Positions 23,952 to 27,590 of a DNA stretch of 33,119 nt are shown here, one piece after another. The notes under the pieces are model-generated. The model saw only the letters and a program-made list of their open reading frames with translations. It made no database searches and had not been told where the DNA came from. The translations under genes were made by a program, and so were the position numbers. Source of the DNA: Thermoplasmata archaeon (GTDB taxonomy: Archaea > Thermoplasmatota > Thermoplasmata > Thermoplasmatales > Thermoplasmataceae); NCBI GenBank assembly GCA_021806295.1, contig JAJZXS010000014.1, positions 1-33,119 on the forward strand. Direction: 5' to 3'. Position 1 is the stretch's first letter. Each line of letters opens with the position of its first letter.

Positions 23952-24025
23952 TATTATTTTCATTAAGTATATTTATCATAACCTGTACCATTAATTAATT
24001 TTTCATTTTCTCATTTTATCAGCAA

Positions 24026-24415
24026 ATGCCAAAACTATTTTTCAGTAAATATTATTTTTGCCTTATGAGATATTTTAGGACAATAAACAGGAAAAGCATA
24101 GACATAAATGAGGAAATTGAGAAATACGATGCAACAAGAATACTAATATCAGATGGCATAAGAATTTCCCGTGGAATTTTACAATACAGCGTAAAAATTC
24201 AGCGTATTTTAACGCCGTACCAGCTGGAAAGGATAATAGCGGAAAATAGCATGGAACGGTACGTTATAGTAATATCCTCACTTATATTTGACTCCTGGAG
24301 TCTAAATGTTATGGATGACCTGCATACAGTTATTAAGAAATCTGTACACAATGGCAGCACTATAATACTGGAAATTGTTGGGAAAGAAACGGTCAATGGA
24401 ACCATCATGGTGTAA
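24026..24415 (+). CDS. hypothetical protein, first gene of the polymerase cassette
   Basis: A protein of up to 129 residues, not recognised. Start may be ATG 24026 or ATG 24065 (MRYFRTINRK); the second removes an unusual Phe/Lys-rich leader. Seen: ATRILISDGIRISRG, a beta strand and turn; LTPYQLERII, a helix; YVIVISSLIFDSWSL, a hydrophobic strand ending in an acidic residue like a Walker B strand; DDLHTVIKKSVHNGSTIILEIVGK, a helix then a strand. This alternating pattern is compatible with part of a RecA-like or Rossmann-like fold lacking a Walker A loop, but this is only an impression. It stands 3 bases before the next gene on the same strand and so is probably co-transcribed with the polymerase. 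Confidence 0.7.
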   Translation: MPKLFFSKYYFCLMRYFRTINRKSIDINEEIEKYDATRILISDGIRISRGILQYSVKIQRILTPYQLERIIAENSMERYVIVISSLIFDSWSLNVMDDLHTVIKKSVHNGSTIILEIVGKETVNGTIMV

Positions 24416-24418
24416 TCT

Positions 24419-24655
24419 ATGGGTAGAAACACTCAGTCCTCCCGTGAATATGTGAAATCTATTGAAGAAGAAATACTTAATATGCGTACGTACATGAGAA
24501 AAGAGGATATTGAAACGCTTAAAACTATACTTTCCATGGCAGAGAAGTATTCAAATAACATAAACAGCAGAGACCAGTTTTTGGTGGCCATTATTATTGG
24601 GCTTTACAGAAAGATGGAGGAATATGGACAGGATAATAAACGCCACTGGTTCTGA
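24419..24655 (+). CDS. small helical protein, second gene of the polymerase cassette
   Basis: A 78-residue protein, not recognised. It is predicted to be almost wholly alpha-helical and charged: REYVKSIEEEILNMRTYMRKEDIETLKTILSMAEKY, then RDQFLVAIIIGLYRKMEEYG. The first half has a heptad-like pattern that could form a coiled coil. It starts 3 bases after the stop of the upstream gene, and its 3' end overlaps the polymerase start by 32 bases, with a GGAGG inside its last codons serving the polymerase. Tight coupling to the polymerase argues for a role as its binding partner or subunit; that is inference. Confidence 0.72.
   Translation: MGRNTQSSREYVKSIEEEILNMRTYMRKEDIETLKTILSMAEKYSNNINSRDQFLVAIIIGLYRKMEEYGQDNKRHWF
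24616..24620 (+). promoter_or_regulatory. Shine-Dalgarno GGAGG for the polymerase gene
   Basis: GGAGG four bases before ATG 24624, within the end of the upstream gene. It selects ATG 24624 over the in-frame TTG 24597. Such a site is unusual in this window, where most starts look leaderless, and marks an internal gene of an operon. Confidence 0.6.
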
Positions 24656-26537
24656 TACTGTATATCTATGGTATTATAGGTCCGGAAAGATAGTGAAAAA
24701 ATCTTTCAATAACCGCACATGGATATTTGTTTCAGGAGACGACTATGATTTAGGCATACTTGAAAAGAGCCTGGATGCAACCAGCTATATTTACAGATAT
24801 ACACAAATGAGTGACATTTATGGAACAAATACTGGTATACAGATATATATGAGGCCTTCCAGGATTCCCGATCTTGTGTCCAGAATAGAGCATTCATTTG
24901 GCTACAGGCTAAGGATATACAATGCTGATATAAACGTTATTTTACGGTTTATGGCAACAAGGAATCTGGAATTTTACAGGCTGAAAAATTTATATGAAGA
25001 GGATGTAAATGTAAACAGTGTGGAGATATACCCTGTGGCAGCCAATGGGAAAATTAAATCTGTTGCAATTAATGGAAAAAAATATAGTAATGATTTGTAC
25101 GGTGCGGTTTACAGATCCATAGAAGAGAATGATATTATTGTATACAGAAATTATTCCGGAGAGTTCATAACACTGCTCCGTGAGATGAAAAAATATGGCT
25201 ACGTAATCAATACAGTATTCGGCCATGAAAGGTCTATCGAATCCTATGGCAGGCATTCGTATATACCGGGGACTGTAAAAATTAAAAACAAAATATGCAT
25301 AAATGCCGATTCTTTTATTTACAGTGAATCTGGACTTTCGGGCATATTTGAACTGTCCAGGGTATCGTCAATGCCAGCCGAGATCGTATCTTCAATAACC
25401 CCTGGAACGGTGGTATCTGCAGTTGAAGTGAAAGAGGCTTTGAAAAGGAAAATACTGGTTCCATTCAGAAAGGATGATTATGAAATAGCAAAGACGCCCC
25501 GTGAATTTTTCGGTGCAGATGTTGGGGGCATTGTTTTTAACCCTGAACCCGGTGTGTATAGAAATGTCTATGAAATAGATTTTTCATCAATGTATCCCGG
25601 CATAATAGTCAATTACGGTATATCCCCTGAAAATATCTCAGGGCAAAAAACCTCTTACCTTTCATCATTTTTGAGGGATTTACTGGAAAGAAGATTGTTT
25701 TACAAAGCGATAAGTGGCAGGGCTGATCTGTATTCAAGAAGGAATATAGCACTGAAAACACTTTTACTCAACTCTTTCGGATATACAGGCTACAAAAATG
25801 CCAAATTCGGCAGGATAGATGTGCATGAAAAAATCACATATACCGGGAGGATGATAATAGAAACTGCCATGAGGATTGCAGAGAAGAATAATTTCAGGGT
25901 TTTGCATGGGGTTGTGGATTCTCTCTGGCTCTCTGGCAATGGCAACATAATAAAAACTATAAATGAGATAAAGGAAAAAACAGGAATACCCATTGTTGTG
26001 GACTCACATTATAAATGGATTGCGTTCATGCCCCAGAATAATGGGATAGGGTCTGCAAACAGGTATATAGGTTTGCGCACTGATAACACCTTCAAGGTCA
26101 GAGGTATAGAAATGCGCAGAATAGATTCACCGGAACTGGTAAAAAAATTCCAGAGAGATGCATTGAATATTTTAAAATGCGATTTTCACCAGCTAAATGG
26201 TAAATCCGGGGAACTTGACAGACTGAAAAGGACATATATGAAAATGGATGGATTTCCCATTGATGATTTCAGGATACAGCTGGGCATAAACAGGCATATT
26301 GAGGAATACAGTGTGAAGAATATTACGTATTACCTCATGAAAACTGCAGGATATGGGCGTGGATTATGCCCTGGCATGTCTGTTTCAGGAATTGTAATGG
26401 ACAAAGGCCACAATATTATACTTGAAAATACAGAATTTTTTGACAGGAAATATTATTCCAAACTTCTTGAAAGGGCATTCAAACCCTTTGATTTTATTGT
26501 TTCACATTCTTTCTATAATATCCCTTATTTTAATTGA
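24624..26537 (+). CDS. divergent family-B DNA polymerase, PolB2-like, with altered motif C
   Basis: A 637-residue family-B polymerase, shorter than replicative archaeal PolB (about 780). Numbering from ATG 24624. N-terminal and exonuclease-like domain at about 1-285: a DxE-like position reads SVE near 132-134 and the ExoII aspartate cannot be found, so proofreading is probably lost. Motif A: GGIVFNPEP then EIDFSSMYPGII, with Asp319 kept. Motif B: KTLLLNSFGYTGY with Lys378 and Asn383 kept. Motif C: canonical YGDTDS reads HGVVDS (429-433), so the first Asp is Val430 (GTT at 25911-25913) while Asp432 is kept. Then NRYIGL replaces KKRYxGL. The pattern fits the PolB2 group, long described as inactivated but linked to damage-induced mutagenesis in Sulfolobales. 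Reduced or specialised synthesis is likely. Its 3' end overlaps the Orc1/Cdc6 gene by 36 bases. Confidence 0.88.
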   Translation: MDRIINATGSDTVYLWYYRSGKIVKKSFNNRTWIFVSGDDYDLGILEKSLDATSYIYRYTQMSDIYGTNTGIQIYMRPSRIPDLVSRIEHSFGYRLRIYNADINVILRFMATRNLEFYRLKNLYEEDVNVNSVEIYPVAANGKIKSVAINGKKYSNDLYGAVYRSIEENDIIVYRNYSGEFITLLREMKKYGYVINTVFGHERSIESYGRHSYIPGTVKIKNKICINADSFIYSESGLSGIFELSRVSSMPAEIVSSITPGTVVSAVEVKEALKRKILVPFRKDDYEIAKTPREFFGADVGGIVFNPEPGVYRNVYEIDFSSMYPGIIVNYGISPENISGQKTSYLSSFLRDLLERRLFYKAISGRADLYSRRNIALKTLLLNSFGYTGYKNAKFGRIDVHEKITYTGRMIIETAMRIAEKNNFRVLHGVVDSLWLSGNGNIIKTINEIKEKTGIPIVVDSHYKWIAFMPQNNGIGSANRYIGLRTDNTFKVRGIEMRRIDSPELVKKFQRDALNILKCDFHQLNGKSGELDRLKRTYMKMDGFPIDDFRIQLGINRHIEEYSVKNITYYLMKTAGYGRGLCPGMSVSGIVMDKGHNIILENTEFFDRKYYSKLLERAFKPFDFIVSHSFYNIPYFN

Positions 26538-27590
26538 AAGTATGGAAACAGGCACGTCGTTTATTGATATATGCTTTGAAACCCCAGACCGGTTGCCACG
26601 ACTTTGAAGGGATGAAGATATTATATCCAGGCTTTCCAGTTTACGGATTACCCGGTATATTTCAGGCCTGTTGAGCGTCATGCCGTATGATTCAGCGGTT
26701 AACCTTACCTGATTTTCAACTGCATGCATATCCACAAAAAGTTTATCTCCAAGAATGCTGCATATTGATAAAAGAACAAGAAGTTCCCTTTTATCAAGCA
26801 GCGACAATTTACTTTCTGTTATATATGGATTTATGAGAGAAACAGCCGAGCGTACATCGTCATTATTTATAGATTCAGATAATCTGTATTCTGCCATGTA
26901 AGATGCCTTCTGTAAAAGTTCTATGGCAAATCTTGCACTGCCGACTGGGGCAGATATATCTGAAATATATTTTATTATTGAATCATTATATGTACCCTGC
27001 CCGAGTGATAATGCAGCCCTTTCCGATATGATTCTGTATATTTCACTGCCACTGTATTTATTGAATTTTAGCTCAACTATGGTTCCATATTTCTTTTCCA
27101 TATAGCTGAATGGATTTTCCATGGATATTAATATACTGCTTAGTTTAGTTCCATAAATTTCAGATGCACGGAATAAATTATATAATCCATCTGTATCATT
27201 TTTCAACAGAGTAGTTGCCTCGTCTATTACAAGCACAGTGCTTCCACGAAAAGATATTATTGAATTTAATGTGGAAAAAATATCCAGGAAAGAGAGACCC
27301 CGATATGATACTGGCCTTCCAAGTCTGGATAGGACATGTTCAAGCAGTGCCTTAATATTTTTGAATGAAAGTGCATTCTCATAAATAATAGATTTATTAT
27401 CCCTCATAAGGAATTTTACTGTTGATGTCTTTCCTGTTCCAGAATCCCCATGTATTATTATATTATTTGAAATTCCACTTCTGGCCGGATTTAAAATGGA
27501 TGACTGTATGGTTGCTATTTTATCATCTCTGAAAAATAATTTTTCCGGGACATAGGATGTATCCAGAGGAGCAGGATTCACAACAATCAT
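26502..27590 (-). CDS. Orc1/Cdc6 family AAA+ ATPase
   Basis: A 362-residue archaeal Orc1/Cdc6 protein. Seen: YVPEKLFFRDDKI at residues 13-25 (the family's entry motif), Walker A GDSGTGKTST at 48-57, Walker B VLVIDEATTLL at 119-129 with Asp123/Glu124, sensor-1 region SILISMENP, sensor-2 GSARFAIELL, and a C-terminal winged helix with PEIYRVIRKLESLDIISS. All ATPase residues are present. It may be an origin-binding initiator or a paralogue acting as transcription regulator, like Orc1-2 of Sulfolobus in the DNA-damage response. Convergent with and overlapping the PolB2-like gene. Leaderless start at ATG 27590 with a TATA box at 27612-27621. Confidence 0.93.
   Translation of the reverse strand: MIVVNPAPLDTSYVPEKLFFRDDKIATIQSSILNPARSGISNNIIIHGDSGTGKTSTVKFLMRDNKSIIYENALSFKNIKALLEHVLSRLGRPVSYRGLSFLDIFSTLNSIISFRGSTVLVIDEATTLLKNDTDGLYNLFRASEIYGTKLSSILISMENPFSYMEKKYGTIVELKFNKYSGSEIYRIISERAALSLGQGTYNDSIIKYISDISAPVGSARFAIELLQKASYMAEYRLSESINNDDVRSAVSLINPYITESKLSLLDKRELLVLLSICSILGDKLFVDMHAVENQVRLTAESYGMTLNRPEIYRVIRKLESLDIISSSLQSRGNRSGVSKHISINDVPVSILSIKIRDIIERM

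Follow-up and report, generated by a model that had tools for sequence, protein, structure and literature searches.

A conserved tandem box before the PolB2 mutasome operon of Thermoplasmatales and a convergent Orc1/Cdc6 paralog as its proposed regulator

How the response to DNA damage is switched on in archaea outside Sulfolobales is an open question, since the LexA system is absent there. It arises in a concrete form at a locus in a 33,119-nucleotide stretch of DNA (contig JAJZXS010000014.1 of assembly GCA_021806295.1, C47 in this analysis; hereafter, the window) from a Ferroplasma-type member of Thermoplasmatales, whose genome comprises 1.47 Mb and is 96% complete. Here, an operon encoding a DNA polymerase of the PolB2 type and two small proteins faces a gene for an Orc1/Cdc6 protein. 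What, then, controls the operon, and does its neighbor take part? The best explanation, to which a probability of about 0.6 is assigned, is that a PolB2 mutasome operon is switched on after damage by the convergent Orc1 paralog acting at a tandem box in front of the operon. The main interest lies in this control element, through which control of the damage response by Orc1 can be put to a direct test outside Sulfolobales. Handles beginning with L, G, and C denote loci, genomes, and contigs, respectively.

The tandem box and the Orc1 paralog in Thermoplasmatales

The box is a 15-mer, TCATTTTCTCATTTT, identical in nine Ferroplasma and Acidiplasma loci in which the surrounding sequence has changed. 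Its general form, the repeat CAHTT-n3-4-CAHTT, is situated at −75 to −40 of the first gene of the operon (gene 1) in 48 of 51 Thermoplasmatales loci (five more were excluded on account of a fusion or an uncertain start) and in none of 417 control promoters; stemming from related, non-independent loci, these counts, like those for methanogens given below, show the strength of the pattern and no true probability. The controls were the other promoters of the same loci, with one (L109's own promoter, with a different start) left out. The window genome contains a single copy of the exact 15-mer; within the genus, it is present in all seven genomes bearing PolB2, and the three that lack PolB2 lack the 15-mer as well. 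Genome G060 harbors a second copy overlapping the end of an open reading frame (ORF), and in G067, where the PolB2 contig is cut, the 15-mer that is present does not lie before gene 1. Contig C133 of the latter genome (position 1170; L174) displays a box with neighboring TCTCAAAA/TTTTGAGA repeats and no ORF directly after it. Other near-matches to the 15-mer reside mostly inside coding sequence, so no wider Ferroplasma regulon is claimed.

Archaeal terminators are T-rich and the genome is A/T-rich; hence, the element might be nothing but the terminator of the upstream gene or an effect of composition. This explanation is highly improbable: the distance from the box to the downstream ATG is fixed although the upstream genes differ between the genera, the repeat is direct and exact, and the same-locus controls are devoid of it.

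The operon itself is strongly conserved. Its three genes are adjacent in one orientation, and the order gene 1–PPB2–PolB2 is kept in all 55 Thermoplasmatales loci not truncated at a contig end (among L054–L110; the first two genes are fused in L069). A convergent orc1 accompanies PolB2 in 43/43 loci of the window's family and in 0/14 loci of the sister group (L095–L106, L108, L109). Because of this constancy of gene order and neighborhood, the cassette is not a chance arrangement; the small genes do stay beside PolB2 in other genomes, and an outcome named as refuting in the preliminary description of this DNA thus did not occur. Of the family's 77 genomes, 64 encode PolB2 together with an Orc1 strongly matching that of the cassette, whereas the other 13 encode neither; these 13 include G063, G064, G066, and G094, each 99% complete. 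The 13 genomes retain a weak match fitting another Orc1 type of ~430 residues. Hence, the cassette Orc1 is a dispensable protein whose presence is tied to that of PolB2.

The cassette Orc1 is an AAA+ protein (Pfam models Cdc6_lid, AAA_22, and Cdc6_C) featuring a Walker A motif GDSGTGKTS, a lid, and a C-terminal winged helix. It is not the sole Orc1 of its genome, which the preliminary description would have counted as refuting its reading, as a second Orc1 of the initiator type (~430 residues) is encoded in the window genome and in most others. In the phylogenetic tree, this other Orc1 groups with the ~430-residue Orc1 of methanogens (support 100/96), and the cassette Orc1 falls outside; the methanogen clade is taken as the initiator type, this role being assumed from tree placement. 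Judging by sequence, the cassette protein appears to be a non-initiator-type paralog existing beside a separate initiator-type Orc1.

The same neighborhood might also be read as a replication module, i.e., a second origin or a captured plasmid where Orc1 initiates replication and PolB2 helps to carry it on. A link with replication initiation was considered by Makarova 2014 (PMC4104785), and the haloarchaeal PolB2 operons are often located on plasmids, some with Cdc6 nearby. However, the two genes are jointly absent from genomes (13/77, four at 99% completeness) which keep another Orc1, one Asp of motif C is missing from PolB2, the spacing between the promoter-proximal box and the ATG is constant, and the same gene is retained upstream of the cassette in Ferroplasma and Acidiplasma. 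Overall, a replication module seems quite improbable.

The features of the locus are collected in Table 1. The gene coordinates, the gap, and the overlaps given in the preliminary description were confirmed, save for one start. Three ORFs on the plus strand face one Orc1/Cdc6 ORF on the minus strand; a 3-base gap separates the first ORF (24026–24415 in its longest form) from the 78-residue one, the ATG of PolB2 is embedded in the end of the latter with a 32-base overlap, and PolB2 and orc1 overlap tail to tail by 36 bases. The longest form of gene 1 encodes 129 residues; its start is most likely at 24065 rather than at 24026, since a TATA-like box precedes the former ATG by ~29 bases and both the proteins and the promoters of the relatives align to that start. 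This spacing suggests a leaderless transcript.

Table 1. Features of the PolB2–orc1 locus in the window
Feature	Position	Strand	Evidence
Tandem operator-like box TCATTTTCTCATTTT	24003..24017	+	Conserved upstream alignment; ATTTTC at 24005-24010 matches ANTTTC
TATA-like A/T-rich box AAAACTATTTTT	24031..24042	+	Aligned Ferroplasma/Acidiplasma upstream regions
Gene 1, RecA-fold protein of minimal size, probable iRadA, 116 aa	24065..24415	+	Model, Foldseek, position, short motif
PPB2 (arCOG07300 type), 78 aa	24419..24655	+	Profile, MGR arm, three-helix model
PolB2 family-B polymerase, 637 aa	24624..26537	+	Motifs A-C, Pfam
Orc1/Cdc6 paralog, 362 aa	26502..27590	-	Pfam, tree, co-occurrence

Proteins encoded by the operon

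The polymerase belongs to family B and is of the PolB2 type, as had been proposed from the letters of the sequence; it is 68% identical to PolB2 of F. acidarmanus, a member of the same genus as the window genome. Motif A (DFSSMYP) and motif B (NSFGYTGYKNAKFG) are both intact; in motif C (HGVVDS), the first Asp is replaced. The Pfam scan revealed the DNA_pol_B domain only and did not detect the exonuclease model. The same replacement and the same lack of exonuclease are known from the PolB2 mutasome polymerases. Such traits would also be expected of a catalytically dead PolB2 serving in a structural or regulatory complex, and early literature called PolB2 inactivated (PMC4104785). A dead enzyme is nevertheless improbable, given the intact motifs A and B and the Sulfolobales PolB2, which bears a comparable motif-C replacement (IID) but is an active polymerase required for targeted mutagenesis (PMC11791011). 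In two less complete genomes, PolB2 appears to be in pieces (G096, contig C7; G109, contigs C39 and C148), representing either a pseudogene or an assembly error.

The 78-residue protein is PPB2, the partner of PolB2 (arCOG07300 type). Its predicted structure consists of three helices, and a profile of the Thermoplasmatales proteins directly retrieves the proteins encoded at the PPB2 position in methanogens and haloarchaea. It possesses the same MGR arm with conserved Arg3 and Arg9 as the published PPB2, but starts with MGRN rather than MGRT (MGR[NTS] in the relatives). A second, stand-alone PPB2-like protein of 83 residues, lacking the MGR arm and having its own box just upstream, is encoded in the genome of L112 (L254:1523-1771).

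The product of gene 1 is probably a reduced form of the inactivated RadA (iRadA), as indicated by its fold, position, and a short motif. Its AlphaFold model has a mean predicted local distance difference test score (pLDDT) of 89.5, and the top Foldseek matches include the RecA-fold proteins FlaH, KaiC, phage P4, RecA, and RadA, every E-value being >0.001 and AAA+ proteins also occurring among the matches. The gene occupies the operon position of iRadA in methanogens and haloarchaea, and a V/I-x-R-x-x-T-x-x-Q-L stretch is common to their proteins. Walker motifs are absent from the gene 1 product, and the Pfam scan returned no matches for it or its family. An argument against the assignment is that hhalign yielded a probability of ≤15% for gene 1 versus the methanogen and haloarchaeal iRadA, with an alignment confined to the short common motif.

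The longest iRadA (243–251 residues, in L126 and L128) match RadA with 95% probability; a merged hidden Markov model of all iRadA did not find RadA. By length, the iRadA-like proteins form a series from 243–251 through 150–180 to 116 residues, and in comparison with the published iRadA those of Ferroplasma and Acidiplasma are cut to 116–118 residues, the C-terminal tail of the others being missing. In methanogens (L117, L121, L125, L130, L133, and others), the iRadA C-termini are QTTLEVF/QATLGAF-like and resemble PCNA-binding motifs; this tail is absent in Ferroplasma. If gene 1 is indeed a reduced iRadA, a partner of 116 residues shows the extent to which a retained Rad51 homolog can shrink.

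The box in methanogens and other euryarchaea

A related box, AYTTTCRC, was found at −80 to −45 of the iRadA gene in 16 of 17 loci of methanogens and other euryarchaea as compared with 0/123 controls. The methanogen box contains ACTTTC and thus has an ANTTTC core in common with the Thermoplasmatales box. In three methanogen genomes, an extended version of the box precedes not only the iRadA operon (L207, L211) but also radA (L210, L214) and the genes for RPA (L199), a radical-SAM DNA modification/repair protein (L209), an RNase H-like exonuclease (L201), an Rpn nuclease (L208, L216), and, in L203, a cytosine methylase. A stricter methanogen pattern gave 20 matches in 14 genomes versus one match with the reversed pattern, and extended the list to an HNH nuclease, another PPB2-like protein, and an uncharacterized 137-residue family. 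AYTTTCRC is also situated upstream of three cdc6 genes of the second type (at −53 in L240, at −56 of the 377-residue start in L243, and at about −97 in L233).

Members of the ~137-residue family are encoded ~77 bases after a CACTTTCRC box in five methanogen genomes (L213/L262, L248, L249, L252, L258). The L249 member has no NCBIfam or Pfam matches; the family is regarded as a candidate member of the damage regulon.

The distribution of the boxes invites a broader, tentative proposal, which is given somewhat less than even odds: Orc1/Cdc6 paralogs acting at ANTTTC-core boxes may represent an ancient, archaea-wide counterpart of LexA/SOS, operating as a one-promoter switch in Thermoplasmatales and governing a wider regulon in methanogens (radA, RPA, nucleases, the PolB2 operon, and the cdc6 paralog itself).

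Proposed control of the operon and known systems

According to the preferred explanation, gene 1, PPB2, and PolB2 would share a single transcript, its promoter lying shortly ahead of 24065. The cassette Orc1 would activate the operon in response to DNA damage by occupying the tandem CATTTTC-type box, immediately before the TATA region, in the way that Orc1-2 binds ANTTTC in Sulfolobales; this step is suggested by the Sulfolobales precedent and by the fact that box and Orc1 come as a pair. By homology, PolB2, PPB2, and the iRadA-like protein may then assemble into a translesion complex, which would extend DNA beyond lesions and introduce mutations in doing so. The link between Orc1 and the box is drawn because Orc1-2 binds ANTTTC, the damage-response element (DDRE), in Sulfolobales, its own promoter included (PMC9738581; PMC6934391), where PolB2/Dpo2 is also damage-inducible (PMC7390963; PMC11791011). 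The suggestion of the preliminary description that Orc1/Cdc6 might be the regulator is plausible in view of the box and the co-occurrence.

Alternatively, the box may be the mutasome operator but be bound by another factor, such as a TFB paralog or a small helix-turn-helix protein, with Orc1 linked otherwise, e.g., by restraining replication during repair. The box does exist without an adjacent Orc1 in the sister family and in methanogens, and most promoters of the cassette orc1 are devoid of it. On the other hand, the cassette Orc1 type co-occurs perfectly with PolB2 and adjoins it convergently in the family, the box is present on orc1 itself in two genera and on cdc6 paralogs in methanogens, and binding of ANTTTC by Orc1-2 is documented (PMC9738581). 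Another binding factor is considered unlikely, albeit to be reckoned with.

Several observations, besides the non-independence of the counts, weigh against control by Orc1. The pairing of regulator and box is a prediction from sequence, and ANTTTC is so short that the likeness to the Sulfolobales element could be a coincidence. The sister family (L095–L109) possesses a T-rich variant of the box and no adjacent Orc1, and most of its members lack a strict ANTTTC. The haloarchaeal PolB2 operons on plasmids (L134–L138) have a differing, GGAAACGACACGCC-like upstream sequence at about −50 from iRadA. The upstream comparison did not find the conserved box in the orc1 promoter of the window; a box, CATTTACTCATTT, precedes the cassette orc1 only in L061, L073, and L074, a low 3/43 spread over two Thermoplasmatales genera (L073 and L074 have it at −61 relative to the conserved start, and its location in L061 is comparable). 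Because its own promoter lacks the box in the window, the cassette Orc1 is not assigned to Orc1-2 but is proposed to work in a similar manner; the likeness is to the published description of Orc1-2, orthology not being implied.

If Orc1 does act at the box, the known neighborhood of Orc1/Cdc6 and PolB2 becomes a defined mechanism. Common to the PolB2 operons of Thermoplasmatales and methanogens as well as to methanogen radA and RPA, the box offers a concrete regulator–target pair.

Neither the operon with its partners nor the proximity of orc1 is new to the literature: PolB2 together with arCOG07300 (PPB2) and inactivated RadA, frequently joined in euryarchaea by an arORC2 gene, was described in Makarova 2014 (PMC4104785) and Timinskas 2025 (PMC11791011), the latter including a model of the translesion complex of PolB2, PPB2, and iRadA. 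The preliminary description was, overall, largely right about the cassette, including its mutasome-type operon with two partners; it erred in regarding the cassette as undescribed and overlooked the strongest clue, the conserved operator. As far as the searched literature shows, the promoter box, its presence at methanogen repair genes, and the 64/13 co-occurrence are new: the box is not mentioned in the text of PMC11791011 or PMC4104785, and no report of it was found in the literature searched, most subscription journals being outside its coverage.

Compared with the PolB2 mutasome operon, the window displays the corresponding three genes, gene 1 as a probable iRadA, in an arrangement that has been described before, and an orc1/cdc6 neighbor; the comparison concerns gene content, and the PolB2 mutasome is further characterized by damage-induced co-expression, a PPB2 trimer, and a heteropentamer. 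With the Orc1-2/DDRE system, the locus shares a non-initiator-type Orc1 paralog with AAA+ and winged-helix domains and, ahead of the TATA region in the promoter of the PolB2 operon, an element containing ANTTTC; in some genera, the element is found on orc1 as well. Unlike in that system, orc1 adjoins the operon that it presumably regulates, the box is repeated in tandem, and the exact 15-mer of Ferroplasma occupies a promoter position only at the PolB2 operon.

In bacteria, ImuA is a RecA-like inactive partner, which makes it similar to the iRadA-like gene 1. The small proteins had been likened to ImuA/ImuB, an identification that was rejected since the polymerase is of family B and its partners have no Pfam match of the DnaE2 or ImuB type; with PPB2 and a probable reduced iRadA in these places, the likeness is at most an analogy. 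What the locus seemingly has in common with the LexA/SOS control of ImuA-ImuB-DnaE2 and of bacterial PolB2 operons is a damage-type control, here proposed, of a multi-protein mutagenic polymerase; family-C polymerase, ImuB, and LexA are absent here, and an AAA+ protein, Orc1, is proposed as the regulator.

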